Positions 1 to 11,568 of a stretch of 11,568 nucleotides of DNA are shown in pieces; position 1 is the first letter of the stretch, and every line of letters starts with the position of its first letter. Under the pieces are notes generated by a model that saw nothing but the letters and a program-made list of their open reading frames with translations, ran no database searches and was not told the origin of the DNA. Where the stretch lies: positions 1 through 11,568 of the forward strand of contig JALHTS010000058.1 of NCBI GenBank assembly GCA_022865965.1, in the 5' to 3' direction. Origin of the DNA: Ignavibacteriaceae bacterium. GTDB lineage: Bacteria > Bacteroidota > Ignavibacteria > Ignavibacteriales > Ignavibacteriaceae. A program made the position numbers and the translations under genes.

Positions 1-56
1 GCTCCAATTATTCCTTTTAACTTTCCCGTTTGGCGGGATTTCATTTCATTCAACAT
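1..56 (-). CDS. 5' end of an unidentified protein gene (cut by window edge)
   Basis: Only the first 18 codons are inside the window, reading MLNEMKSRQTGKLKGIIGA (the last residue is inferred from two bases). The ATG at 56-54 is chosen because a full AGGAG Shine-Dalgarno site lies 6 bases upstream at 67-63. An in-frame ATG at codon 5 has no such site. The gene lies 64 bases downstream of recO on the same strand and may be the last member of the pfkB-mtnA-recO transcript, although its own strong ribosome site suggests independent translation. The start is polar and basic, followed by a small hydrophobic run (GIIGA). This is too little to assign a family. The GIIGA run recalls the N-terminus of MTA/SAH nucleosidase, but the preceding basic segment does not fit well, so no function is claimed. 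Confidence 0.6.
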   Translation of the reverse strand, partial: MLNEMKSRQTGKLKGIIG

Positions 57-62
57 TTTATT

Positions 63-67
63 CTCCT
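63..67 (-). promoter_or_regulatory. Strong Shine-Dalgarno site of the truncated gene
   Basis: On the minus strand AGGAG lies 6 bases before the ATG at 56-54. The surrounding 12 bases, CTCAGGAGAATA (70-59), are identical to those in front of the PfkB-family kinase gene (2792-2781). Most other genes in this window lack a recognisable Shine-Dalgarno site, so this one decides the start. Confidence 0.7.
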
Positions 68-120
68 GAGTTTTTTCACATTTAAGGTTATCAAATAGTA
101 GCAGATTAGCCGATAGTCAC

Positions 121-867
121 CTACTTAAAATTGTTGAAAATATTTAATGACTGAATTCCGTTAAAACCCGGAATATGATGTTTTGTATATCTATCCAAAA
201 ATATATTAGCTTGTTTAAGTAAAACAAGCGAAATATTTTGAACTGAAATTTTGTTGTTTAGACAAAAAAAGTAATTCAAAAGTTCCGCAGAGGCAAAATT
301 CAATCCTGGATGCGATTCAAAACAATTAACACAGACAAAACCTGTATCGAAATTAAAACCACCACTATTTTTACCAATTTCTTTTTTACAAATGCCGCAT
401 TCAGATGTTTGAAGCGCATATCCCAGTTCAGATAAAAAGAAAAGATAAAATCTTCCGAATAAAATTGAAGGATGTTCATTATCGGAATCGATAAGTGATA
501 GAATTCTTACCAATCCCTTGAATAATTTTTTATTAACTTCATTTTCAACAGTTAGTTTTTTTATCAGTTCAATAATTGCTAATGAATATTGAGTTTTATC
601 AAGGTCTTCTTTAATTCTTGGGTAATGTGAAATTGTATCTATACTGGAAAGTAATTGTAAATCGCGAGTGTCTTTTTTATAAACGACAATCTGAACATGA
701 TTTAGCGGATCGGCAATCATTCCCATTTTTGATTTAGGATTTCTTCCCCCTTTTATTATCACAGATATCTTACCATACAATTCCGTGAAAACGGAAATTA
801 TCAAACTTGTATCGCCGTAATTGAGCTTACTCAAAACGACGGCTTCTGTCTTTATTATTTCGCTCAT
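121..867 (-). CDS. recO: DNA repair protein RecO
   Basis: RecO works with RecR (and RecF) to load RecA onto SSB-coated single-stranded DNA during gap repair and homologous recombination, and it anneals complementary strands; it acts in the cytoplasm. The 248-residue length is normal for the family. Residues 1-80 fit the N-terminal OB fold, with the typical opening (KTEAVVLSKLNYGDTSLI) and the conserved GGRNPKSK stretch near 40-47. The rest is the helical C-terminal domain with a CxxC...CxxC zinc-finger pattern at Cys157, Cys160, Cys179 and Cys182. That zinc site is present in many RecO proteins and lost in others. The ATG overlaps the mtnA stop codon (ATGA, 4 bases shared), so translation is probably coupled; no separate promoter or Shine-Dalgarno site is visible. 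Linkage to a kinase and mtnA has no obvious functional logic. Confidence 0.93.
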   Translation of the reverse strand: MSEIIKTEAVVLSKLNYGDTSLIISVFTELYGKISVIIKGGRNPKSKMGMIADPLNHVQIVVYKKDTRDLQLLSSIDTISHYPRIKEDLDKTQYSLAIIELIKKLTVENEVNKKLFKGLVRILSLIDSDNEHPSILFGRFYLFFLSELGYALQTSECGICKKEIGKNSGGFNFDTGFVCVNCFESHPGLNFASAELLNYFFCLNNKISVQNISLVLLKQANIFLDRYTKHHIPGFNGIQSLNIFNNFK

Positions 868-1874
868 CTTATAAAATTATATGGGAAAAGAAATAAATCT
901 TCTTCAGTTATAATTCCCGTAATCAGGTGAGATGGAGTAACATCAAATGCCGGTGTAAATGTTGAATAATGCTCAGGAGCAACTTTTATTCCTTTTACTT
1001 CAGTCAGTTCTTTTCCGCTTCTGTATTCAATTTGGATTTCAGAACCGTTCGCAATATTTCTGTCTATGGTTGTTGAAGGAGCTGCAATGTAAAAAGGAAT
1101 GTTATGATAATTACAAAGTATAGCTAAATTATATGTACCAATTTTATTTGCAGAATCGCCATTCAACGCTATCCTGTCAGCACCGGTAATAACAAGATCA
1201 ACTTTGCCCTGCTGCATTAATACTGCCGCAGAAGAATCTGTGTTTATTGAGAATGGAATTTCATTTTTATCAAGTTCAAAAGAAGTGAGTCTTAACCCTT
1301 GTAATAAAGGCCTTGTTTCATCAGCAAAGACGTGAGAAATTAAATTATTATCAAAAGCGTGCTTGATAATTGCAAATGCGGTTCCGAAACCGCCTGCCGC
1401 TAATGCACCCGTGTTACAATGAGTAAGCACATTAGATTTTTTTTGGAATATTCTTAATCCGTTATGTGCAATTCTATCTGAGTATTCATCTTCTTGTTTA
1501 TGAATTAACTTTGCTTCTGCTAGTAAAATTTCAAAGGAATTATTTAGATCCTGAATTAGTTCAAATTTACTTTTTATTCTTTCGAGTGCATAAAAAAGAT
1601 TTACAGCAGTCGGACGAGTTGATACTAATCTTTTATAAGCCTGTTCAAAATCATTTTTAAAATCTTGGGAGTTTTTCAATGATAAAGCAAGTGCATAGGC
1701 TGCTGCAATGCCAATAAGTGGAGCGCCACGCAATTCAAGACGTTCAATGCCTTCGGCAATCCTTACATAACTATCAGTTGAAATATAATTTTCCTGAAGA
1801 GGAAGGACTGTTTGATCGATATAAATCAGTTTGCCTGATTCAAATTTCAGATTGTAGTAACTGTTAGCTTTCAT
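864..1874 (-). CDS. mtnA: S-methyl-5-thioribose-1-phosphate isomerase (MtnA)
   Basis: MtnA converts 5-methylthioribose-1-phosphate to 5-methylthioribulose-1-phosphate in methionine salvage from methylthioadenosine (cytoplasm, eIF2B-like fold). Family signatures are clear: RGAPLIGIAAAY at 49-60, HCNTGALAAGGFGTA with the catalytic Cys at 153, ADETRPLLQGLRLT near 184-197, ITGADRI with the catalytic Asp at 233, then NKIGTYNLA and, near the C-terminus, PAFDVTPSHLITGIITE. The length of 336 residues is usual. The start is ATG at 1874-1872; an in-frame TTG directly before it (1877-1875) could add one residue but is less likely. The start lies 11 bases inside the upstream kinase gene and the stop overlaps recO by 4 bases, so all three genes are one operon. 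The same fold is used by 5-deoxyribose-1-phosphate and ribose-1,5-bisphosphate isomerases, so a related substrate cannot be excluded. No other methionine-salvage gene is visible here. Confidence 0.92.
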   Translation of the reverse strand: MKANSYYNLKFESGKLIYIDQTVLPLQENYISTDSYVRIAEGIERLELRGAPLIGIAAAYALALSLKNSQDFKNDFEQAYKRLVSTRPTAVNLFYALERIKSKFELIQDLNNSFEILLAEAKLIHKQEDEYSDRIAHNGLRIFQKKSNVLTHCNTGALAAGGFGTAFAIIKHAFDNNLISHVFADETRPLLQGLRLTSFELDKNEIPFSINTDSSAAVLMQQGKVDLVITGADRIALNGDSANKIGTYNLAILCNYHNIPFYIAAPSTTIDRNIANGSEIQIEYRSGKELTEVKGIKVAPEHYSTFTPAFDVTPSHLITGIITEEDLFLFPYNFIR

Positions 1875-2778
1875 CAAATCTGGATAAATTCATGAATTCT
1901 CTGAACCTGTCCTTTATTCTGAATAAGGAAAGTTCTTCTAAACCTTTTGTACTGAATCTTTCTACGCAGAAGGAAGCCATAGTACTTCCATAAATAACTG
2001 CTGCCTTAAGACAATTGGGAGATAAATCTCTGTTACTATAAAGATGACCAATAAATCCTCCTGCAAAAGAATCACCTGCACCGGTTGGATCGTTAATCAT
2101 TTCCATAGGATATGCAGGCGCAGAGAAAATTATATCTTCTGTAAATAACAAGGCGCCATGTTCACCTTTTTTAATTATCAGAATTTCAGGTCCAAAATCC
2201 CGAATCTTTCTTGATGCTTTAATTAGATTTGGTTCGTGTGCAAGCAAACGTGCTTCGGAATCGTTAATTATAAGGACAGAAACTCTGGGAAGAAGTTCCA
2301 TCAATTCTTTTTTCTTTCCTTCAATCCAGTAATTCATAGTGTCACAAACTACAAATTGCGGATCATCCATCTGATCCAAAACTTTACTCTGAAGAACAGG
2401 ATCAATATTTCCGAGACAAATGTATTTTGATTTTCGTGCGCTCTCCGGAATGATCGGATCAAATTTTTCAAATACATTAAGATCTGTTGAAAGAGTATCC
2501 CGGACGTTAAGATCATAGTGATATTTGCCTGCCCAACGAAAAGTTTTTCCGCCTTCAACAATCTTTAATCCCTCAAGATCAATATTGTGTTCTTCAAGCA
2601 TCTTTATATAATTCTTGGGGAAATCACTTCCTACAATTCCAACTAAATTAACTGGTCCGGTAAAATAGCTTGCTGCAAGCGAAATGTAAGTGGCTGATCC
2701 TCCAAGTGCATCTTCGACTTTATCAAATGGTGTTGATACTGTATCCAATGCCAAAGATCCTACGACTAAGAGACCCAA
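1864..2778 (-). CDS. PfkB-family (ribokinase-like) sugar or nucleoside kinase
   Basis: This 304-residue cytoplasmic kinase is expected to transfer phosphate from ATP to a sugar, sugar phosphate or nucleoside. The N-terminal PfkB Gly-Gly motif is at 26-27 (ALGGSATYISLAASYF). The C-terminal signature DPTGAGDSFAGGF spans 230-242, with the anion hole GAGD and the catalytic base Asp236. ATP-site elements NDSEA (172-176) and IIKKGEHGALLF (201-212) are in the usual places. The start is a TTG at 2778-2776 with AGGAG six bases upstream; there is no ATG near the N-terminus. It is the first gene of the operon with mtnA (11-base overlap) and recO. The substrate is not assigned. The link to mtnA suggests a ribose-1-phosphate, methylthioribose or deoxyribose-type substrate, by analogy with archaeal pathways pairing a PfkB kinase with an MtnA-like isomerase; that is inference. 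Confidence 0.88.
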   Translation of the reverse strand: MGLLVVGSLALDTVSTPFDKVEDALGGSATYISLAASYFTGPVNLVGIVGSDFPKNYIKMLEEHNIDLEGLKIVEGGKTFRWAGKYHYDLNVRDTLSTDLNVFEKFDPIIPESARKSKYICLGNIDPVLQSKVLDQMDDPQFVVCDTMNYWIEGKKKELMELLPRVSVLIINDSEARLLAHEPNLIKASRKIRDFGPEILIIKKGEHGALLFTEDIIFSAPAYPMEMINDPTGAGDSFAGGFIGHLYSNRDLSPNCLKAAVIYGSTMASFCVERFSTKGLEELSLFRIKDRFREFMNLSRFDES

Positions 2779-2784
2779 AATATT

Positions 2785-2789
2785 CTCCT
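2785..2789 (-). promoter_or_regulatory. Shine-Dalgarno site fixing the TTG start of the PfkB-family kinase
   Basis: AGGAG on the minus strand sits 6 bases before the TTG at 2778-2776, the same spacing as in front of the truncated gene at 56. It supports a TTG start rather than a missing upstream ATG. Confidence 0.65.
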
Positions 2790-2815
2790 GAGATTTGTTT
2801 GTTTAATGACTGGTG

Positions 2816-2846
2816 CAAAAATAGATATTTATTTGATATAAGCACA
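2816..2846 (-). promoter_or_regulatory. Candidate Bacteroidota-type promoter of the pfkB-mtnA-recO operon
   Basis: On the minus strand a -7 element TATTTTTG (2823-2816) matches TAnnTTTG exactly. Nineteen bases upstream is TGTG (2846-2843), three of four bases of the TTTG -33 element. This would start transcription about 30 bases before the TTG start codon. It was found by eye in AT-rich DNA, so chance matches are possible. Confidence 0.45.
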
Positions 2847-2874
2847 ATAAATTTGTAGGGAACGAACTCTTTAC

Positions 2875-3336
2875 CTACATATTTATTTCCAATAAATTCA
2901 AAAAAATATTTTTGTTGAAAAAATAATCGACAATAACATCAACAGATTTTTTTTGACCAACCCAGGCCAAATGCTGTTTAGCTTCTTCTGATGATAACCA
3001 TTTATATTCTACATGTTCATTGCTAAGATTAATTTCACTATTATAATTTACTTTTGTTGCAAAAACCGGAACAGACGTTATGCTGTCATTCTCTGCTGTA
3101 TAAAATGAATTGACATTTGGAACAACCCACAAATTTAACGGAGTTAATCCTGTTTCTTCTTTAATTTCCCTTAAAGCACACTCGAAGGCTTTTTCATTTG
3201 GTTTGATTTTACCTGAAATCATTTGCCATAAATTTGGATAATACTGAGTTGGTGATCTCTTTAGAAGAAGAAATTCTATCTGTCCATTCATTTCTCGAAA
3301 AATGTGTGCTTCGATTAGGTTTGAGATTATGTTCAT
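2875..3336 (-). CDS. Nudix hydrolase, NudB-like
   Basis: A cytoplasmic Nudix enzyme of 153 residues that hydrolyses a nucleoside-diphosphate-linked substrate with Mg2+. The complete Nudix box Gx5Ex7REUxEExGU runs from Gly42 to Leu64, with REIKEETGL as its second half. The opening (FLLLKRSP, then YPNLWQMISGKI) and the C-terminal EHVEYKWLSSEEAKQHLAW resemble the dihydroneopterin-triphosphate pyrophosphatase (NudB) group of folate synthesis. Nudix substrates cannot be read safely from sequence, so this stays a class call. The ATG at 3336-3334 has no Shine-Dalgarno site. The gene lies 96 bases upstream of the pfkB operon and 159 bases downstream of the outer-membrane protein gene, probably as its own unit. 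A weak inverted repeat (TGTAGG at 2854-2859, CCTACA at 2874-2879) overlaps its stop codon. Confidence 0.85.
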   Translation of the reverse strand: MNIISNLIEAHIFREMNGQIEFLLLKRSPTQYYPNLWQMISGKIKPNEKAFECALREIKEETGLTPLNLWVVPNVNSFYTAENDSITSVPVFATKVNYNSEINLSNEHVEYKWLSSEEAKQHLAWVGQKKSVDVIVDYFFNKNIFLNLLEINM

Positions 3337-3367
3337 AATTGTAATTATTATTTATTGTGTATTGTTG

Positions 3368-3382
3368 AACTCCTGCGGAGTT
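3368..3382. repeat. Short perfect hairpin AACTCC-TGC-GGAGTT
   Basis: A perfect 6-base-pair stem (3368-3373 with 3377-3382) closes a 3-base loop, 32 bases upstream of the Nudix ATG. It would fall in the 5' leader if a weak promoter match on the minus strand (TTTT at 3418-3415, 19 bases, TACAATTG at 3395-3388) is real. No T-run follows on either strand, so it does not look like a terminator. It may be a transcript-stabilising stem or a member of a dispersed palindrome family. Confidence 0.4.
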
Positions 3383-3421
3383 AGTTACAATTGTAAATAT
3401 TTGTAATTTCATCTAAAATAA

Positions 3422-3477
3422 TGAATATCGAACAAGGAATAATGAAGTCAAAATAAATCTTCGTCATTCGATATTCA
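3422..3477 (-). terminator. Long inverted repeat after the outer-membrane protein gene, terminator or dispersed palindrome
   Basis: The 11-base arms TGAATATCGAA (3422-3432) and TTCGATATTCA (3467-3477) are perfect complements around a 34-base loop. The loop contains a smaller stem (GAAG 3444-3447 with CTTC 3459-3462). The element lies 18 bases past the stop codon of the outer-membrane protein gene. In that gene's direction the stem is followed by a T-rich stretch (TTATTTTAG), so it could end that transcript. A related sequence occurs at 7112-7135, which favours a dispersed repeat that may double as terminator. Confidence 0.5.
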
Positions 3478-3495
3478 AACAAATTTATTCCTAAT

Positions 3496-6400
3496 TTAAA
3501 AATACGCTCTTGCTTCAGCTCTTGCAGTATGCACTACTCTTCCTGCTCCTTGAAGCCTGCCGTCATAGCTTAGAGTTGTTTGAAGATTTGCTGATAACCT
3601 ATAATCAAAATTAACTCTCCAATAATAATTCTTTCCAATTTGATTTCCACCTGTGAGTTCAAATGGAATAAGATTCTGTGTTGTATTGGCAATCAATTCA
3701 TTACGTTCAAGCTCAATTCGTAATCTTCCTGTGCCAAGGAATGATAAGTTAAACCTTAGCATTTGAGAATTCAAATCTATAACCGTTGGACTTATCGGAA
3801 AAGTATCCTCGCTTCTACCGACTTTTATTCTGAATCCAACTTCAATGCTTCTAACAGGTCTGTACGAAAAATCAGATGTAATATTATTATTAGTAACCTT
3901 TCTTCTTCTGTTCGAGCTTTCATTTGCACTCACGTTATCAGATTCATTAATAATATCTGTTTGATTGCTTATTTCTTTTATCAATTTAAATTTTATTCTT
4001 AAGCTTCTTTCGCGATTGTATCCTTTTTCATAGCCGTCGTAAAATTCATTTAGGCTGTTGCGTTGCGCAAACCTGAATCGGAAAGACAGATCCTGATCAT
4101 TTTCAAACAAGAAAAAATCCTGTTGTAAATAGTTCGATCCGCGAATTGTAGTGGATTCATTCAAAAAGTAATTGAAGTTAAGTAAATAAATTTTTGCATA
4201 ATCAGTTTCTCTGCTGTTCTCTTCAACTCTCCAAAAAGTTTCCGTAGATACAGGACTAAGGATTTTTCCTGCAAAAGTATTCTTTTCAAAAAGATTGGCA
4301 AAATTAATTTTCCACCTTGTACTTACTTTCAAATCAATTACAGGAAATAACTCATCAGTTGGAATTGTAACCTGAATAAAATCACCATCATAAATTGTGG
4401 GTTCAAATTCATTCTCATCTGCAATGCCATTATTGTTAAGATCACCAAGATATTTGAAATTACCTGTTCCCTGTTCAACTCTTACAAAAACTTTTTGAAG
4501 CTTTGCCGATCGTTGTGTTGATACTTCATAAAACAAATCACCATTCAAAATTCTTTCCCACAATCTGAACTTTGATTGCGATCTGACTAAAATTGTTTCA
4601 CTGTTAAGAAATCCTTTTTCTTTGAAAGTATCAGAATACTTTTTATTTCTGAATGTAAAGTTAAGTGATGTATTCACTTCCTTAATTCCGGAATATGAAG
4701 CTTCATAAGAGTGAGTGTTTGCAACCGATTCATTCAACATAACGCCGTCAACTGGAAGATATTCATCACGAATGGAGTACTTTGCAACGAAGTTAAAACC
4801 GTTTACATCAACAAGCTGGATTGAAGGAATGTATTCAAAATATTTCAAACTCCCTGAAATCAACGAGTCTGTTTCTCTGCGTTTATCTGTTTTATCTTCA
4901 GCAAGAAATTCAAAAGAGGGTTTGAAAATAGAAATCACGTAATAAGCATTTGTTCTGTGTCTATACCAACTGCTTGACAATAAAACATTTTTTGATTTTA
5001 CATAATCAAGATTATAATTCAATCCAAAGGATTTATTATCGGAAAAAGTAAGAATGTTGTTAAATCTGTCGGACGAGAAGTTTTCTCCTTTTTTGAGAAA
5101 GCCTGCTGTGCTATTAAGTTTTAAATTGTCATTTGGAATTAATGTTAATCCGATTTCTCTCAGAAGTTCATCTTCGCTTTCCTGAGATTGAATTGTGTTA
5201 TAATTTCTGTTGAATTCAACTTCATTAAATCTGCCGGCTGAAGTGAATTTATCCTGAATGAATCTATCACGAAAATTCAATCCTGCTTTACCTAAGTTTA
5301 GTGATCCTATCTTAACTTCTGTAGGATCAAGTTTAAGTGAAATATTTCTTGAATAACCATAGTTATCATTATCATCCAAACTTGAGAATCTGTTTTTATC
5401 CCATAAGCTTCCAGCGTACTCAAGACTAATTGTTAAATCTTTGAAAGGATTTATGTCAACAACAAAATTTCCTATTTGTTTTAACTGCGGTGCTGGTAAA
5501 TAAATGATTGGCAAATAACCACCCCGACCAATTCCAATGAATTTATAATTACCAAGACTTTCACGTATATAATCACCTGTACCTTCACCAACATAACTGA
5601 AACTAACATTATAAATTGAATTAGGTTCACCCGGAGCATAAACGTAGTATGCATAAGGATTATCATTTATAACTGTATCAACTTTTGCGTAAACACCTTT
5701 TAGAATTCCAAGTGAATCCGGCTCCGCTAATGTTACACCGGATTTGGCAGCTTTATTTCGATCATCTCCAGCGAGCGAAAGTATTTCTTTATCCTGATCT
5801 GATAAAGTAATATCAATTGGTGCATCCTGATCGTCACCTTCACGCAAATACTGAAACTTTATATCAAGTTTATCATTAAAAAATTTTCCACCTGTTCCTG
5901 CACCGAGAAAATTTCGGGAATATCTTCTGTCTGTATATTCAAAATCTATATTTATTCTTGAAGCTGAAGTGATAAGTCGGTTTGGAGTAAATATAATTGT
6001 TGCATCAGAGTATTCGATAACATAATCATTATTCTCGCCTCGTTTCATTTCAATGCCGTCAAGAAAAACTTTTTCTGTACCTGCAATAATTGTAATATTT
6101 CTTTCATTATTTGTTCCACTTAAACGGTATGGTCCCTGAACACCATCAATTCCGTTAAATGAATTTGAATTGAATTTTCCGCGTGAACTTGCAATTGCAA
6201 TGTAACCGGAATAATCAGATACAAAAAATTCACCCATCAGTCCTTGCAGTTTTCTATCAATAACACCAAACTCACCGAATCTTTTTCTAAGTTGATAATC
6301 CCCAAAAGTACCTACTGCATTCGGATGCTTTACCTGAATAAAAACTTTATCAAGTTCTTCCAATCTTTCAGTATTTCCTTCAGGTTGGATAGGTGTATTT

Positions 6401-6969
6401 TCATCAGTCAGTGCGGCAACAATTTCAATATCATCTGAAAGTCTTCCTGACAACTGCAAACGTAATCCACTATTCAGCGAAAAATCTTTCGTAGTTCCCA
6501 CAGTAAAACCACGAACAATAGTTCCGCTCTTCTGAATTCCAGAACCAAATATTGATTCAGAAGTAAACCCTCCTCTTTCAGATTGAAGTATCCTGACGGT
6601 ATCACCAAATTGTTCATTGTATTTAACTACAAGACTTCTTCGTTTATATTCTTTTTTAAGTCCGAGTCTTATGGTTTGATAAGTAACAATTAAAGTATCA
6701 AAAATAGAGTAAGGTAAAGATTCAGATAATTGAAAAGATGCAGTAGAATAGGAAATTAAATAATCTTCTTTTCTCAGAATGTTTCCGCGAAGTACTATGC
6801 TTTCTGAATTAGGAACTATGTTTACAGCAAAAAGGAAATATTTATTTTCAAAGTTTATTGTGAGTGTGTCGGAAACAACTGTTGTGTTATAGTTTTGCTG
6901 AGCAAACATCGTATTTAGTACGAAGAAGCAAAATATATTCGTTAAAAGATAAACTGTTCGAAATTTCAA
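3496..6969 (-). CDS. Large secreted beta-barrel outer-membrane protein, function unknown
   Basis: A 1157-residue protein with a Sec signal peptide (about 1-24, MKFRTVYLLT then a hydrophobic core, cleavage likely after MFA) and no transmembrane helices elsewhere. Residues 26-130 look like a periplasmic or surface beta domain. A conserved-looking block follows at 147-222 (KSGTIVRGFTVGTTKDFSLN, then DENTPIQPEGN). The remainder is rich in alternating, aromatic-ended strands typical of a large beta-barrel, ending in AEARAYF with the terminal Phe expected of BAM substrates. A calcium-loop-like segment DLNNNGIADENE sits at 843-854. The start is a TTG at 6969-6967; no in-frame ATG or GTG lies between it and an upstream stop at 7020-7018, and the next Met is at the signal-peptide end. 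No Shine-Dalgarno site is visible. I recognise the general look of Bacteroidota/Ignavibacteria outer-membrane proteins but no named family; it is much shorter than SprA. It appears to be transcribed alone. Confidence 0.85.
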   Translation of the reverse strand: MKFRTVYLLTNIFCFFVLNTMFAQQNYNTTVVSDTLTINFENKYFLFAVNIVPNSESIVLRGNILRKEDYLISYSTASFQLSESLPYSIFDTLIVTYQTIRLGLKKEYKRRSLVVKYNEQFGDTVRILQSERGGFTSESIFGSGIQKSGTIVRGFTVGTTKDFSLNSGLRLQLSGRLSDDIEIVAALTDENTPIQPEGNTERLEELDKVFIQVKHPNAVGTFGDYQLRKRFGEFGVIDRKLQGLMGEFFVSDYSGYIAIASSRGKFNSNSFNGIDGVQGPYRLSGTNNERNITIIAGTEKVFLDGIEMKRGENNDYVIEYSDATIIFTPNRLITSASRINIDFEYTDRRYSRNFLGAGTGGKFFNDKLDIKFQYLREGDDQDAPIDITLSDQDKEILSLAGDDRNKAAKSGVTLAEPDSLGILKGVYAKVDTVINDNPYAYYVYAPGEPNSIYNVSFSYVGEGTGDYIRESLGNYKFIGIGRGGYLPIIYLPAPQLKQIGNFVVDINPFKDLTISLEYAGSLWDKNRFSSLDDNDNYGYSRNISLKLDPTEVKIGSLNLGKAGLNFRDRFIQDKFTSAGRFNEVEFNRNYNTIQSQESEDELLREIGLTLIPNDNLKLNSTAGFLKKGENFSSDRFNNILTFSDNKSFGLNYNLDYVKSKNVLLSSSWYRHRTNAYYVISIFKPSFEFLAEDKTDKRRETDSLISGSLKYFEYIPSIQLVDVNGFNFVAKYSIRDEYLPVDGVMLNESVANTHSYEASYSGIKEVNTSLNFTFRNKKYSDTFKEKGFLNSETILVRSQSKFRLWERILNGDLFYEVSTQRSAKLQKVFVRVEQGTGNFKYLGDLNNNGIADENEFEPTIYDGDFIQVTIPTDELFPVIDLKVSTRWKINFANLFEKNTFAGKILSPVSTETFWRVEENSRETDYAKIYLLNFNYFLNESTTIRGSNYLQQDFFLFENDQDLSFRFRFAQRNSLNEFYDGYEKGYNRERSLRIKFKLIKEISNQTDIINESDNVSANESSNRRRKVTNNNITSDFSYRPVRSIEVGFRIKVGRSEDTFPISPTVIDLNSQMLRFNLSFLGTGRLRIELERNELIANTTQNLIPFELTGGNQIGKNYYWRVNFDYRLSANLQTTLSYDGRLQGAGRVVHTARAEARAYF

Positions 6970-6993
6970 AAGCGGATTCGGATTTATTTGTGC

Positions 6994-7024
6994 GAAATCT
7001 AAGTGAAGTGAAACGTTTTATCAA
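6994..7024 (-). promoter_or_regulatory. Candidate promoter of the outer-membrane protein gene
   Basis: On the minus strand TTGATA (7024-7019) and TAGATT (7001-6996) are separated by 17 bases, a good sigma70-like arrangement. The -10 region extends to TAGATTTC, which also fits the Bacteroidota -7 element TAnnTTTG at seven of eight bases. Transcription would start about 20 bases before the TTG start codon. No other convincing site lies in the 175 bases upstream of the gene. Confidence 0.45.
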
Positions 7025-7111
7025 GTCCCTATAAAATAAATGAATAAATATTATGCGCTATTATTAGCCTAAATGATTTTAGATAGTCAGAGTCAGGAAA
7101 AATGGAGAATA

Positions 7112-7135
7112 GTGAATTTCGAATAAGGAATATCG
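7112..7135. repeat. Second, diverged copy of the 3421-3444 intergenic repeat
   Basis: By direct alignment 19 of 24 bases match 3421-3444; the shared core is TGAAT, TCGAA and AAGGAATA. This copy lacks the complementary distal arm found at 3467-3477. It ends 7 bases from the stop codon of the AbgT-like remnant, so it marks that gene's broken end. Confidence 0.5.
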
Positions 7136-7141
7136 TCCAAA

Positions 7142-7336
7142 TCAGAGCTTTAATAAGCCAGCACCTTTAACAGCAATTATGAGTCCAATATTTGTCCTAT
7201 TGAAATAAGAAGCAAATTGAGCAGTAAAGAAAACCAGGACCATATAAACACTTAACAATTCCATTGCCTTGCCAATCCCCTTCATAACATTATAAATATA
7301 AAGTGCAAAAAGTATGAAAAACAACTGAATTTTTTA
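7142..7336 (-). pseudogene. Remnant of an AbgT-family (aminobenzoyl-glutamate) transporter gene
   Basis: About 60 open codons on the minus strand encode a hydrophobic segment resembling the middle-to-late membrane part of AbgT/MtrF transporters. The diagnostic stretch is [20 protein letters not shown] followed by IGLIIAVKG, matching the family pattern AQFVAxFNWSNxG...AVKG as I remember it. Intact family members are about 500 residues, so roughly nine tenths is missing. Upstream, LFFILFAL joins almost directly to [10 protein letters not shown], where intact proteins have an intervening loop, suggesting an internal deletion. The conserved Trp of FNWSN is Arg here. The frame is closed by TAA at 7336-7334 upstream and TGA at 7144-7142 downstream. 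An ATG at the MKGIG position has no ribosome site. A live small membrane protein is possible but less likely. Confidence 0.65.
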
Positions 7337-7351
7337 TATTTTGCAGTTGTT
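7320..7351. promoter_or_regulatory. Inverted repeat AACAACTG-N16-CAGTTGTT, possible operator
   Basis: Two perfect 8-base arms at 7320-7327 and 7344-7351 face each other across 16 bases. The right arm begins directly after the candidate -33 element (TTTG, 7340-7343) of the hybrid kinase gene, placing it in the promoter spacer. The left arm overlaps the AbgT remnant. It could bind a repressor or be a hairpin; no regulator is identified. Confidence 0.35.
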
Positions 7352-7370
7352 AAATTTATATTTACATTTT
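7340..7370 (+). promoter_or_regulatory. Bacteroidota-type promoter of the hybrid sensor gene
   Basis: TTTG at 7340-7343, a 19-base spacer, then TACATTTT at 7363-7370 gives a full -33 element, the exact consensus spacing and seven of eight bases of the TAnnTTTG -7 element. The ATG at 7414 follows after 43 bases with no Shine-Dalgarno site between. Confidence 0.5.
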
Positions 7371-7413
7371 AAATAGTATTTTCTAACACACTAATAAAAT
7401 AATTTAACTTAAT

Positions 7414-9771
7414 ATGCAAAGTGCCAAAATAGATTTTGTTACTAAATACAACAAACTTATTCAATCAGCAGTAATTTATTCAGATGAATTTCCTTCTCAG
7501 TTGTGTGATTTTGTAACTGCTGAATTTGAATTAGAAGTTGCTGTTCTATTTAGAATAACTTCTTCACAATCTTTTGAAGTGTTGGGGAAATCCTCTTTAA
7601 CAAAAAAATATCTTACAAGATACTCGGTACTCGAATGTAAAAATTGCAAACATCTAAAAAATGAACCCGGTTCTGATGAGTTTATTTCACAATCCAATTG
7701 TAAAATTTCAATTACTGATATTGTGCATAATGAAGCTTGTTCACACATTCTTCTTTCTCCAACTGAAAAAATTATTTTCAAGATTTCGAAAAAAAGCAAA
7801 TTTACACAAGGTGAATTGGATAATCTCTCTACAGTTAATTCTAGTGTTAAAAATTTATTAAAAATATGGAGCGGAAACCGTATTATATCGGGAAATTCTG
7901 TAAGTAACATTATTTCATCAATAGCTCAGGAACTACGAACTCCCTCGAATAGCATAATGGGTTTTGCTTCGCTTCTAAATGAAGAAAATTTATCACCTTC
8001 ACAAAGTGAGTATGTTAACACACTAAAGGAAAATGCGTTTGTACTTTTATCAATTATAAACGATATAATTGATCTTGCAAAATTTGAAAACGGTTTAAAT
8101 AAAACGACAAGAACAAATGTAAAGTTAAAAGACTTTATAAATGAAGTTGTTACTCTCTTTTCTGATAAGATTGATTCTAAGAAAATCGAATTCATGATTG
8201 ACATTGACAAAGCACTTCCTGAACATTTGAACATTGACACGCAAAAACTCAGGTACACAATAATTAACATTATTACAAATTCTGTAAGAATCACAGAAAA
8301 AGGAAAAATAAGCATCTCGATTTTTGCTTCAGGAAAAGGTAAGCTAAGTTTCAGAATTACTGACACAAGTAGTGGTCTTCCGGCTAAGAAAGTTACAGAA
8401 ATCTTTCAACCTTTTGCACTAAATGAACTATTTAATTCCAAAATCGGTAACACGACAGGATTAGGTTTAACTCTTTCAAAAAAATATATTGAAGTGCTTG
8501 AAGGAGATATCTCGGTTTCAAGTGCAATCGGTAAAGGAACGACTTATACATTCTCAATTGCAGCCGATATCAGCAGCTCAATCGAATCACAGCTAAGTTC
8601 GCTACCAAAACCATCAGAGAAAAAGAATAAAGTTTTAGTTGTTGAAGATGACTATGCTACATCAAAACTTTTGAGTAATTATTTAACTAAATGGGGATAT
8701 GAACCACTAATTGTTAATTCTGCTCAACAAGCACTTAAATCAGTCGAGAATGAATCTTTCCTTGCTGTATTGATGGATATAGTTCTTCCTGATACAAACG
8801 GATTTGAACTTCTTAAACAAATAAGAGAACATCCCAAAACAAAAAATACTCCGATTATTGTTTGTTCGGTTGAAACAGAACAGCAAAAAGCTTTTCTGAT
8901 GGGTGCAGTTGAATATTTTGTAAAACCAATTAACTATAAGTACTTAGTTGAAATATTAATGAGCTACAGGCTTAAAAAAGACTCCAACATACTTATTGTT
9001 GATGATGACGTTCCCACTCTTAATTTGATGAAAGAAGCTGTTGAACAATCAGGTTTTAATGCTATTGCAGAATCTCATTCATCCAAAGTGATTAGTATGA
9101 TTGAGAATATGAGTCTCGATCTTGCAATTATAGATCTGGATATGCCGGAAATAAATGGTTTCGATCTTATAAAGCTGATTAAGTCAAATAAAAATTTTTC
9201 CAGGCTTCCTATCATTATCTATACAGGTAAAGAAAATTATCAGGATGATCTAAAGAAGATTGATGGGTTGTTCGAAGAATTGCTGCTTAAAAGCAGTTCT
9301 AATATTGAAGATCTTGCAGAAACAATTAATGCAATGATCAACAGATATGATGAGCCTTCTACACCCGAAGAAATAAAAGAAAAGGTCGATAGCGTCAAAA
9401 TACTTCTTGTTGAAGATTACAAACATTCTCAAATTATTGTAACTAGACTTTTAAAGAAAAATAATTTCGATTCAATTGTGGTTGTTGAAAACGGCGTTGA
9501 AGCTGTTGAGGCAGTTCAACATCAGCAGTACAATCTTATACTTATGGATATGCAAATGCCTGTTATGAACGGATTTGAAGCAACTCAAAAATTTAGAGAG
9601 ATACCTGAGTACAAGGACACGCCGATAATAGCTTTAACAGCTTTTGCTATGAAGGGCGACAGGGAAAAATGTCTTGAAGCAGGAGCAACCGACTACATAC
9701 CAAAACCAATTGACAGTCAGGAGTTTATTCAAAAAGTAAAATACTATACTGAAAGTAAAGTCAGTAGCTGA
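7414..9771 (+). CDS. Hybrid histidine-kinase-like protein with three receiver domains and no phospho-accepting His
   Basis: A 785-residue soluble signalling protein with no signal peptide or membrane segment. Residues 1-155 form a GAF-like input domain with Cys75, Cys78, Cys96 and Cys109. A dimerisation domain follows (165-228) whose H-box reads AQELRTPSNSIMGF: Gln172 (codon CAG) replaces the His phosphorylated in normal kinases. The ATP-binding domain (about 235-385) keeps the N-box (NIITNSVRIT, Asn289) and the G2 motif TGLGL (348-352). Its G1 box is DTSSG (317-321) instead of DxGxG. Three receivers follow, each with intact key residues: about 404-520 (acceptor Asp455, Ser485, Lys504), about 523-642 (Asp574, Thr604, Lys626) and about 660-780 (Asp712, Thr742, Lys764). 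There is no HPt or DNA-binding output domain. It likely works as a scaffold, phosphatase or phosphate sink rather than an autokinase; the partner kinase is unknown. It is transcribed alone. Confidence 0.9.
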   Translation: MQSAKIDFVTKYNKLIQSAVIYSDEFPSQLCDFVTAEFELEVAVLFRITSSQSFEVLGKSSLTKKYLTRYSVLECKNCKHLKNEPGSDEFISQSNCKISITDIVHNEACSHILLSPTEKIIFKISKKSKFTQGELDNLSTVNSSVKNLLKIWSGNRIISGNSVSNIISSIAQELRTPSNSIMGFASLLNEENLSPSQSEYVNTLKENAFVLLSIINDIIDLAKFENGLNKTTRTNVKLKDFINEVVTLFSDKIDSKKIEFMIDIDKALPEHLNIDTQKLRYTIINIITNSVRITEKGKISISIFASGKGKLSFRITDTSSGLPAKKVTEIFQPFALNELFNSKIGNTTGLGLTLSKKYIEVLEGDISVSSAIGKGTTYTFSIAADISSSIESQLSSLPKPSEKKNKVLVVEDDYATSKLLSNYLTKWGYEPLIVNSAQQALKSVENESFLAVLMDIVLPDTNGFELLKQIREHPKTKNTPIIVCSVETEQQKAFLMGAVEYFVKPINYKYLVEILMSYRLKKDSNILIVDDDVPTLNLMKEAVEQSGFNAIAESHSSKVISMIENMSLDLAIIDLDMPEINGFDLIKLIKSNKNFSRLPIIIYTGKENYQDDLKKIDGLFEELLLKSSSNIEDLAETINAMINRYDEPSTPEEIKEKVDSVKILLVEDYKHSQIIVTRLLKKNNFDSIVVVENGVEAVEAVQHQQYNLILMDMQMPVMNGFEATQKFREIPEYKDTPIIALTAFAMKGDREKCLEAGATDYIPKPIDSQEFIQKVKYYTESKVSS

Positions 9772-9807
9772 TAACTGAAATATTTTTATCCTGCCATTCG
9801 GTCTAAC

Positions 9808-9838
9808 TTTTCTTAGTCATCAAGGCTGACTAATTTTG
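9808..9838 (+). promoter_or_regulatory. Candidate promoter of gltX-glnS with a dyad in its spacer
   Basis: TTTT at 9808-9811, a 19-base spacer, then TAATTTTG at 9831-9838, an exact TAnnTTTG match. The gltX ATG follows after 34 bases. The spacer holds most of a perfect inverted repeat, TTAGTCA (9813-9819) and TGACTAA (9827-9833), so a DNA-binding protein there would block the promoter. Confidence 0.45.
9813..9837 (+). terminator. Hairpin plus T-run between the hybrid sensor gene and gltX
   Basis: A perfect 7-base-pair stem (9813-9819 with 9827-9833, 7-base loop) is followed by TTTT, 41 bases past the sensor gene's stop. The stem is AT-rich and the T-run short, so as a terminator it would be weak. 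The same bases overlap the candidate gltX promoter, and the dyad may instead be an operator. Confidence 0.35.
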
Positions 9839-9872
9839 TAATCATTATTTTTCATAGTTATTAATTAGACAA

Positions 9873-11330
9873 ATGATAAGCGAAACAGTACGTGTAAGAT
9901 TTGCACCAAGTCCAACCGGTCATCTTCATATAGGTGGATTAAGAACGGCGTTATATAATTATCTTTTTGCAAAACACCATAACGGAAAATTTATTATTCG
10001 CATTGAAGATACTGACAGAAACCGTTACGTAGAAGGTGCTGTTGAAAATTTAATCAGCGTTTTGAATTGGATTGGTTTAAAGTATGATGAAGGTCCTGAT
10101 GTTAAAGGAGAATTCGGACCTTATATGCAGTCACAACGTTTGGATATCTATAAAAAATATGCAAATGATTTATTGGAAAATGGCAAAGCATATTATTGTT
10201 TTTGCACTCCAGAAAGATTGCAAGAACTTCGTGAAGAACAACAGAGGCAAAAACTTCCTCAGGCAAAGTATGATAAACATTGTCTCAATCATACAAAGGA
10301 TGAAATAAAAGGAAAATTTGAATCAGGCATTCCGCATGTAATAAGATTGAATGTACCTTCAAATCAAAAAGTAGTGTTTGATGATGTGATTAGAGAAAGT
10401 GTTGAATTTGATACTTCCAATATTGACGACCAGGTTTTAATTAAGAGCGATGGCTTCCCTACTTATCATCTGGCAAACGTAGTTGATGATCATTTAATGA
10501 AAATAACTCACGTTATCCGTGGTGAAGAATGGTTATCATCAACTCCAAAACATATTCTTCTTTATGATTTTTTAAAATGGGAAAAACCGGTTTTTGCTCA
10601 CCTGCCGCTTTTATTAAATCCCGATAGATCAAAGCTAAGTAAAAGACAAGGCGATGTTGCAGTTGAGGACTATCAATCAAAAGGTTATTTGAAAGAAGCT
10701 TTAATTAATTTTATTGCTTTACTCGGATGGAATGCAGGTGATGATAAAGAATTTTATTATTTAGATGAACTTGTTGAAAAATTTTCTCTTGAACGAGTTA
10801 ATAAAGCCGGTGCTGTATTCGATCTTCAAAAATTAAATTGGTTAAATGCAGAACATCTCCGCAAGAAAACTAATAGCGAAATTCTGCAGATGTTGAAAGC
10901 AGAAATTCAGAATTCTGATTACGAAACTCTAATTTTTTCTGATGATTACTTGCTGACCGTAATTGAAACAATGAAGGAAAGAGTTTCCTTCGTAAAAGAA
11001 TTTATTACAAATGCTCCTTACTTTTTTGAAGCTCCAGATTCGTATGAGGAAGAAATTGTTAAGAAAAGATGGAATCAAGAATCAGCAGAGCTTCTTAAAG
11101 CACTTTCGGAAATATATTCTAAGCTGGATAATCCAACTAAAGAAGATTATGAGCACGGATTAAAATCTTTAACGGAGTTAAAACAAATTGGAATTGGAAA
11201 AATAATTCATCCATTAAGATTAGCAGTGTCCGGAATGGGAAATGGTCCGGGTGTTTATGATATCCTCCATATCATAGGAAAAGATGAAACAATCAAAAGA
11301 ATTAACAAAGCAATTGAAACATTAAAATAA
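9873..11330 (+). CDS. gltX: Glutamyl-tRNA synthetase (GluRS)
   Basis: A class I aminoacyl-tRNA synthetase that charges tRNA-Glu with glutamate using ATP in the cytoplasm. At 485 residues it is full length. The N-terminal Rossmann fold opens with [20 protein letters not shown]; the HIGH motif is HIGG at 19-22. The KMSKS loop is KLSKR at 254-258. A zinc-site pattern, CFC (Cys109, Cys111) with Tyr133 and Cys137, lies in the inserted acceptor-binding domain. The C-terminal anticodon-binding region (about 330-485) is complete and ends with a normal family tail. The ATG at 9873 has no Shine-Dalgarno site. Because a GlnRS gene follows 5 bases after the stop, this enzyme is probably the discriminating type that does not mischarge tRNA-Gln; that is inference from context. 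Confidence 0.96.
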
Positions 11331-11335
11331 ATCTT

Positions 11336-11568
11336 ATGAACGAAAACATTAGCGAAACCAACAACGAAAATAAATCTGTCACAAAAAATTTCATTGAAGA
11401 AATTATCGAAGATGATCTTAAAACTAATAAGTACAATGGAAGAGTTCACACAAGATTCCCTCCTGAACCAAACGGTTATCTTCATATTGGTCATGCAAAA
11501 TCTATTTGCCTGAACTTCGGATTAGCACAAAAATATAACGGCAAATGTAATTTACGATTCGATGATAC
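11336..11568 (+). CDS. glnS: Glutaminyl-tRNA synthetase (GlnRS), 5' part
   Basis: Seventy-seven complete codons are present before the window ends. After a short Asn/Glu-rich leader come [13 protein letters not shown] and then [20 protein letters not shown], with the HIGH motif at 50-53, and NLRFDDT. The [20 protein letters not shown] pattern is characteristic of bacterial and eukaryotic GlnRS and separates it from GluRS, which has PSPTG. The enzyme attaches glutamine directly to tRNA-Gln, making the GatCAB amidotransferase route unnecessary for this tRNA. It follows gltX by 5 bases without its own promoter, so it is co-transcribed with it. There is no strong Shine-Dalgarno site. Confidence 0.95.

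Follow-up and report, generated by a model that had tools for sequence, protein, structure and literature searches.

The window analysed here is a stretch of 11,568 nucleotides from an Ignavibacteriaceae bacterium (GCA_022865965.1, contig JALHTS010000058.1, positions 1 to 11,568), taken from an assembly of 741 contigs with an estimated contamination of 7.84%. At its centre of interest is a gene for a hybrid histidine kinase that carries glutamine in the place of the phospho-accepting histidine and is probably kinase-dead. The protein combines an N-terminal part predicted as a GAF fold with a transmitter, consisting of a HisKA (DHp) and a HATPase_c domain, and three receivers, REC1 to REC3. The features are collected in Table 1, in which the Pfam E-values for HisKA and HATPase_c are whole-protein values; three Response_reg stretches were matched. 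The Pfam scan of the window protein gave no HPt match, and a promoter and terminator scan of positions 7000 to 10000 returned hits at chance level only.

Table 1. Features of the window, with strand and supporting details.
Feature	Position	Strand	Details
Probably kinase-dead hybrid histidine kinase, whole gene	7414..9771	+	785 aa; GAF - HisKA - HATPase_c - REC1 - REC2 - REC3
N-terminal GAF-fold sensor domain (predicted)	7414..7878	+	residues 1-155
Four-Cys motif C75-x2-C78-x17-C96-x12-C109 within the GAF fold	7636..7740	+	ortholog alignment
Degenerate HisKA (DHp) domain	7903..8094	+	residues 164-227; Pfam E 1.2e-13; no His inside
Codon CAG, Gln172 replacing the phospho-accepting His	7927..7929	+	sequence and column statistics
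HATPase_c domain, altered G1 box	8236..8562	+	residues 275-383; Pfam E 1.4e-17
Altered G1 box DTSSG	8362..8376	+	residues 317-321; S319 in 13/13 rows of genera g1, g11, g12
Receiver 1, acceptor D455	8629..8973	+	residues 406-520; D455 in 125/135 rows, Asn in 10
Receiver 2, acceptor D574	8989..9333	+	residues 526-640; D574, T604, K626 in 135/135
Receiver 3, acceptor D712	9397..9747	+	residues 662-778; D712 in 133/135 (one Val, one gap)
REC3 acid pair and alpha1, near-invariant, EDYKHSQIIVTRLLKKN	9412..9462	+	residues 667-683; same in 128/135
gltX, conserved downstream neighbour	9873..11330	+	NCBIfam TIGR00464 above cut-off

The original prediction, made from the DNA letters by themselves, described a Gln codon where the acceptor His is expected, an altered G1 box, and three receivers with their Asp, Thr/Ser and Lys intact. 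Reading the codon confirmed the first point, with Gln172 lying in the H-box sequence SSIAQELRTPSN; the DTSSG box is present as described, and the receiver triads are D455/S485/K504 in REC1, D574/T604/K626 in REC2 and D712/T742/K764 in REC3. Another His in the same helix had been named as an observation that would overturn the prediction. There is no His anywhere in the HisKA region of the window protein (residues 162-227), which, together with Gln172, supports the expectation that the protein would not phosphorylate itself on His.

Orthologs (E <= 1e-90) were detected in 146 of the 164 genomes of the order, many of them draft assemblies; the gene is present in 103 of the 109 good-quality genomes and in 71 of the 80 genomes of the window's own family. 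There was one match per genome, except in G036 and G101, where the gene lies in two pieces. The order, which in the taxonomy includes Ignavibacteriaceae and Melioribacteraceae, and its families are named here after the database names of close homologs, which are Ignavibacteriaceae, Ignavibacterium or Ignavibacteriales, with one Bacteroidetes. Of 148 open reading frames (ORFs) extracted, 135 are near full length and form the rows counted below, the 13 with at most 700 of the 785 alignment columns filled being left out. Neighbours were judged in the 136 copies with at least 800 bases after the gene in the fetched stretch, and a gltX homolog lies in this downstream flank in 121 of them, at a median distance of 123 bases. 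This adjacency may be taken as positional support for orthology; we claim no functional link.

In the 18 genomes of the order without a match at 1e-90, a query restricted to the receivers gave further pieces in G157, described below, in G030 (a C-terminal fragment that spans the end of REC2 and REC3 and has gltX after it) and in G112 (a diverged fragment at the edge of a contig). The remaining matches of this query were hybrid kinases at 31-33% identity, and it gave no match at 1e-40 in 12 of the 19 genomes searched, that is, the 18 and G092 as a positive. Outside the order, among 391 sampled genomes of the class, the best matches cover the kinase-receiver part only, at 33-36% identity, and belong to family f13. 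A contig scan with an unspecific receiver motif returned at least 80 loci. Four of these (L200-L203) are clear orthologs with identities of 44-70%; the remaining 76, at 23-32% identity mainly over the kinase-receiver part, are uninformative on absence elsewhere. Among the titles listed in a literature search, none deals with this pseudokinase family; most subscription papers lay outside its coverage, so absence from print is not proven. PMC5492636, which concerns Melioribacter, mentions a different system.

His172 is missing from 107 of the 135 rows, and column 172 holds 16 different residues: Asn (35), Gln (30), His (28), Ser (10), Leu (6), Pro (4) and Asp (4), followed by Gly and Glu (3 each), Phe, Lys, Met, Thr and Val (2 each) and Ala and Arg (1 each). 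By family of genomes, His172 is found in 26 of 66 rows of the window's own family f1, in 2 of 64 of f2 and in 0 of 5 of f3. Closer to the window the residue is uniform, with Gln172 in all 13 near-full rows of genera g1, g11 and g12, the clade of the window (support of 99 in the Shimodaira-Hasegawa-like approximate likelihood-ratio test, SH-aLRT), and also in the sister genome G062. Database searches matched 865 proteins, of which the best 120 were aligned; in these column 172 is Gln in 98 and His in 22, and the E-L-R-T-P flank is nearly complete (E in 119, L, R, T and P in 120 each). Because this flank is kept around position 172, Gln172 is not a chance reading. The database cluster of the window protein represents 6 member sequences. 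A sequencing error or recent mutation is very unlikely and was rejected, Gln being common to the sister genome, the clade and the close database homologs.

The prediction had foreseen two outcomes of an ortholog alignment, a conserved Gln marking a dedicated His-less family or a His in all relatives. Neither was observed. With 16 residues at the column, a family defined by conserved Gln was rejected, and what the alignment displays is a third outcome, repeated loss. A quick LG+G4 tree, in which several long branches meet, was rooted on nine canonical hybrid kinases. It requires at least 7 switches from His to another residue or back, and among the f1 genera His172 is found in several branches that diverge early. 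Most likely the ancestor had His172 and lost it several times, a direction that depends on the outgroup and whose details are blurred by the long branches. A substitute acceptor shared within the same helix was also considered and rejected: it is absent from the window protein, and among the relatives no position is widely common. Some His in columns 162-227 occurs in 35 of the 107 rows without His172, and the commonest such column, 209, accounts for 9 of the 107.

The decay extends to the ATP site. We scored seven canonical transmitter residues, chosen from the known motifs of histidine kinases (H172, N289, D317, G319, G321, G349 and G351). No family row has all seven, while all nine outgroup kinases do, of which four are paralogs from the order and five belong to a different family of the class; the maximum kept is six, in 6 of the 135 rows. 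The five f13 matches that were read have all seven. The N-box Asn289 is lost in 25 of the 28 rows that retain His172, and both residues occur together in only 3 of the 135. Because only these 3 His-bearing rows have N289, most His-keeping members are probably inactive too. We looked for antagonism between His172 and N289, which would point to selection against kinase activity, but do not claim it: the independent-pairs test had too few informative pairs and gave a median p of 1. The window protein does not have complete N, G1 and G2 boxes, Ser319 standing where the canonical Gly is found. In the 13 rows of genera g1, g11 and g12, N289, D317, G321 and G349 are present throughout, G351 in 8 and G319 in none. 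Next to the acceptor position, Glu or Asp is found at 173 in 120 of the 135 rows, and Thr at 176 in 82 (Asn in 24). The RTP after the H-box is mostly kept in the window's own family, and the ExxT motif decays in f2, with examples such as QELKNN, NELRSH and GLRNPV.

Ten members selected for divergence were scanned with Pfam at E 0.01: five matched neither HisKA nor HATPase_c, two matched HisKA only and three both, and all ten have three receivers. The family spans a graded series: at one end stand members that have His172 and lack little of the ATP site, at the other those in which Pfam does not recognise the transmitter or in which it is missing. For one divergent member, G088, residues 1-393, which are without Pfam transmitter matches, were modelled with a mean predicted local distance difference test score (pLDDT) of 85.8 as two long DHp-like helices and a CA-like domain, and the 50 Foldseek PDB matches listed for the model include GacS (7z8n), RetS (6dk7) and DivL (4q20); this prediction is not independent of homology, as the input alignment held less degenerate relatives. 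The ratio of nonsynonymous to synonymous substitution rates (dN/dS) of the HATPase domain was 0.02 for G154/G158, 0.00 for G075/G076, 0.04 for G043/G044 and 0.08 for G107/G108, these four of ten pairs being the readable ones, with all dS between 0.2 and 1. In nearly all lineages the transmitter is retained as a module predicted to fold.

The receivers behave quite differently. Mean column entropies over the 135 rows are 2.37 bits for GAF, 1.76 for HisKA and 2.31 for HATPase, against 0.89, 0.95 and 0.51 for REC1, REC2 and REC3, and the fraction of columns at least 95% identical is 0.02, 0.02 and 0.01 in the former domains and 0.32, 0.39 and 0.62 in the receivers. As a matched control we used a canonical hybrid kinase paralog taken from nine of the same genomes. 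Mean identities in the pseudokinase family are 70% for HisKA, 51% for HATPase and 77, 71 and 87% for REC1 to REC3; in the paralog they are 84% and 63%, and 66, 70 and 65% for the receivers. Because of this comparison we conclude that constraint has been lost in the transmitter and gained in REC1 and REC3, not in REC2. The suggestion of the original prediction that selection has preserved three receivers is borne out in a strong form, the acceptor Asp, Thr/Ser and Lys being present as in active hybrid kinases and, for REC2 and the REC3 Asp, nearly without exception.

Within REC3 the alpha1 helix stands out, with a mean entropy of 0.03 bits and 100% identity in the nine genomes, against 69% in the paralog (receiver helix boundaries were placed by eye on the CheY pattern). 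In receivers, alpha1 is the face that docks on DHp or HPt domains. Because this face is near-invariant, we infer that one partner has been kept through the order. His671 (9424-9426), in the same helix, is fully conserved, and the nine outgroup receivers have Met or Asp there. The output or dimer contact of REC3 may also be fixed, judging from the alpha4-beta5-alpha5 face discussed below.

One lineage carries what looks like a natural deletion. Between clpP and gltX, G092 (98% complete) has a 400-aa ORF made up of a linker and REC1 to REC3 only (L166 3995-5194). This ORF is 83% identical to residues 386-783 of G094 of the same genus, and when five family proteins were searched against the interval by tblastn, no remnant of a GAF domain or transmitter was detected. 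The gene of G157, a genome close to G156, is broken (L283 637-1863): its GAF pieces lie in two frames, a gap covers the transmitter and REC1, and after the gap REC2 and REC3 pieces follow in two frames. An HPt match was found in 80 of the 85 order genomes at least 95% complete. In the five without, the gene is full-length in G121 and G123, full-length with D712V in G108, receivers-only in G092 and broken in G157. This is suggestive of an HPt not being needed as partner; the numbers are small, HPts were possibly missed, and we do not use it as proof. As separate observations, G157 has a small genome, rated 100% complete, without an HPt match, and for the single case of G108 (L115), with D712V and no HPt match, the nearest relative on the tree, G107, retains the Asp and gave a single HPt match.

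The GAF-fold domain gave no usable match in Pfam and PDB profile searches. All four Cys of its motif are present in 115 of the 135 near-full orthologs, with nearly fixed spacing, and they may form a metal or Fe-S site.

With moderate confidence, we read the protein as a kinase-dead hybrid histidine kinase whose receivers would be phosphorylated in trans by a partner, and as a member of an order-wide orthologous family that is normally single-copy. The sequences show that the transmitter cannot take phosphate on residue 172, that in most relatives the ATP site is incomplete, and that the receivers are the constrained core. One or more of the receivers, REC3 above all, would obtain phosphoryl groups from a dedicated partner docking on the REC3 alpha1 face; this would be the DHp of a separate histidine kinase or, with lower probability, an HPt. 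The pseudo-transmitter would dimerise and dock, and the four-Cys GAF domain might tune signalling through a redox, metal or small-molecule signal. The output could be a phosphate sink or brake on the partner, as RetS is for GacS, or a phosphorylation-dependent scaffold. In favour of supply in trans, a GacS chimera whose acceptor His had been replaced is reported to have restored wild-type phenotypes, which its authors explained by crosstalk (PMC8175716). Of the roles first suggested, pseudokinase scaffold, phosphatase or phosphate sink fed by another kinase, the fed pseudokinase is our best reading and a phosphatase is unlikely as an order-wide role; the sequence does not separate the sink, scaffold and phosphatase readings from one another. 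A bolder version, to which we give only tentative credence, makes the protein an order-wide core hub. The kinase scaffold would then only carry the receivers, which a single dedicated partner, fixed since the ancestor of the order and marked by REC3 alpha1, would phosphorylate in trans. Once the protein was wired in this way, the His and ATP sites would have been dismantled repeatedly and independently, in one lineage as far as loss of the whole transmitter.

Several observations weigh against the reading of a dead kinase phosphorylated in trans. His172 is still present in 28 rows, two of them among the 64 of f2, and three relatives, G005, G006 and G061, keep both H172 and N289 and might retain activity. 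The ATP site of the window protein is less damaged than many, with N289, D317, G321, G349 and G351 kept. In the nine genomes HisKA is about as conserved as REC2 (70% and 71%), and REC2 is no more conserved than that of the paralog (71% vs 70%). Because the REC1 acceptor is replaced by Asn in 10 of the 135 rows and that of REC3 by Val in one genome, G108, phosphorylation is not needed everywhere for each receiver. Conservation is likewise very high on the alpha4-beta5-alpha5 face of REC3 (91% vs 62% in the paralog, nine genomes), and because of this second highly conserved face alpha1 conservation is by itself no proof of a donor in trans. No phosphotransfer partner was identified; in the loci fetched from the genome of the window, no other receiver shares the REC3 alpha1 sequence, the best agreement being 6 of 17 residues. 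The receivers-only form is known from a single assembly, in which a fault is possible. Six of the ten dN/dS pairs were too close or saturated for reading every domain; the close pair G014/G021 gave 0.29 for HATPase on a dS of 0.04, and G107/G108 gave 0.18 for HisKA. Finally, RcsD, which is without the H-box His, is reported to autophosphorylate in vitro (PMC3762810), so His loss alone is no proof of inactivity.

This RcsD precedent also speaks for a kinase that is still active through another phospho-acceptor, as does the window protein's retention of HisKA and HATPase_c matches above the Pfam cut-off. We nevertheless regard such an activity as improbable: the HisKA region of the window protein offers no His, no alternative His is widely common in the 107 rows, and N-box and G-box residues are gone in many relatives. 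The transmitter could instead be the output itself, binding a partner kinase or a phosphorylated regulator in the manner of DivL or of mechanism 3 of RetS, with receiver phosphorylation gating the binding. The fold predicted for G088 despite motif loss, the low HATPase dN/dS in the four readable pairs, and the N289, D317, G321 and G349 fixed in the window's clade, where ATP might still bind, are in line with such docking. However, conservation is lowest in the HATPase and GAF domains and G092 keeps the receivers without a transmitter, and we consider this unlikely as the purpose of the protein.

Dephosphorylation of a partner's or the protein's own receiver through ExxT (E173, T176), as RetS does on GacS, with the receivers as substrates or regulators, seems to us quite unlikely. 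The acidic residue at 173, the Thr at 176 and the RTP of the window's own family would suit it; the conserved His is described as contributing to, and non-essential for, HisKA phosphatase activity (PMC12632262), and RetS is reported to need T428 of its HExxT (PMC5992135). On the other hand, DivL, a His-less protein of the same kind, is reported to be without phosphatase activity (PMC4211667), half of the ten scanned divergent members have no HisKA match, and in G092 the domain is absent. Because ExxT decays in f2, a transmitter phosphatase is unlikely as the shared role across the order, though it is possible within f1, the window's own family, where E173 and T176 are mostly kept. A functionless, decaying relic is hardly credible and already disfavoured. 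The progressive loss of the catalytic motifs and the disrupted G157 copy, with its internal deletion and its changes of frame, are what such decay would produce, but 135 of the 148 extracted rows are open over nearly the full length, nearly all good-quality genomes have the gene, and REC1 and REC3, with its near-invariant alpha1, are more conserved than in the canonical paralog.

The rest of the window bears other genes. On the minus strand, recO, mtnA, a PfkB-family kinase and a probable NUDIX-type hydrolase lie in a run at 121-3336, the last called from one NCBIfam match below cut-off. A minus-strand ORF of 1157 aa at 3496-6969 had no match in NCBIfam (threshold 1e-10) or in Pfam (0.001); homologs of it lie upstream of the pseudokinase gene in 8 further ortholog loci.

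HisKA domains without His made up 722 of 76,471 sampled, or 0.9%, in a reported survey (PMC12632262). The feature described here is real and unusual; pseudo-histidine kinases are a known kind of protein, and what is notable is the order-wide conservation, the graded decay and the fixed receivers. Those traits of that kind that can be read from sequence, namely homology to kinases, none of the 135 rows with all seven residues, conserved receivers and retention throughout the order, were found. A graded family with nearly fixed receivers offers a natural series on what pseudo-histidine kinases are for and which part of them is selected, and the REC3 alpha1 face gives a concrete handle toward the partner kinase.

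Among known proteins, ChpT and Spo0B keep a phosphorylatable His. The window protein, with no His in its HisKA region, lacks the four-helix-bundle His that marks HPt-like degenerate phosphotransferases. PhyT/PhyP, ChpT and Spo0B are described as descended, or thought to be, from kinases and as having a degenerate catalytic domain, a likeness to our protein, and PhyP and PhyT, unlike it, as keeping the phosphorylatable His (PMC5898713). The list of 50 PDB matches for the divergent G088 transmitter contains structures of RetS. RetS, a hybrid sensor kinase of Pseudomonas aeruginosa, has two receivers and a periplasmic 7TMR-DISM sensor, whereas three receivers and a four-Cys GAF-fold sensor are found here, the window protein giving no Pfam match to a 7TMR-DISM sensor. 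RetS is likewise hybrid, with a degenerate HATPase domain, is reported not to autophosphorylate and has its receiver fed by another kinase (PMC5992135). It is reported to keep the HExxT of its H-box (PMC5992135), in contrast to the loss of His here. In the window protein the HATPase motifs are partly degenerate.

DivL, the pseudo-histidine kinase of Caulobacter, is not known to have C-terminal receivers, whereas the window protein has three, and Tyr, the DivL state, occurs at column 172 in none of the 135 rows. As here, its acceptor His is replaced, in DivL by that Tyr; it is reported to be kinase-inactive, with the transmitter as a binding module, and differs in its PAS sensors and in binding a separate regulator, DivK, while the acceptor position in our family varies widely (PMC4211667). 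RcsD resembles the window protein as a hybrid-type protein without the H-box His that is described as working in a relay with another kinase; it is a membrane protein with an HPt (PMC3762810), whereas here there are three receivers and no HPt match. RodK, a hybrid kinase of Myxococcus, also has three receivers, the third of which is reported to be phosphorylated; in RodK it is the protein's own kinase domain that phosphorylates REC3 (PMC3868531), whereas in the window protein the transmitter appears to be dead.

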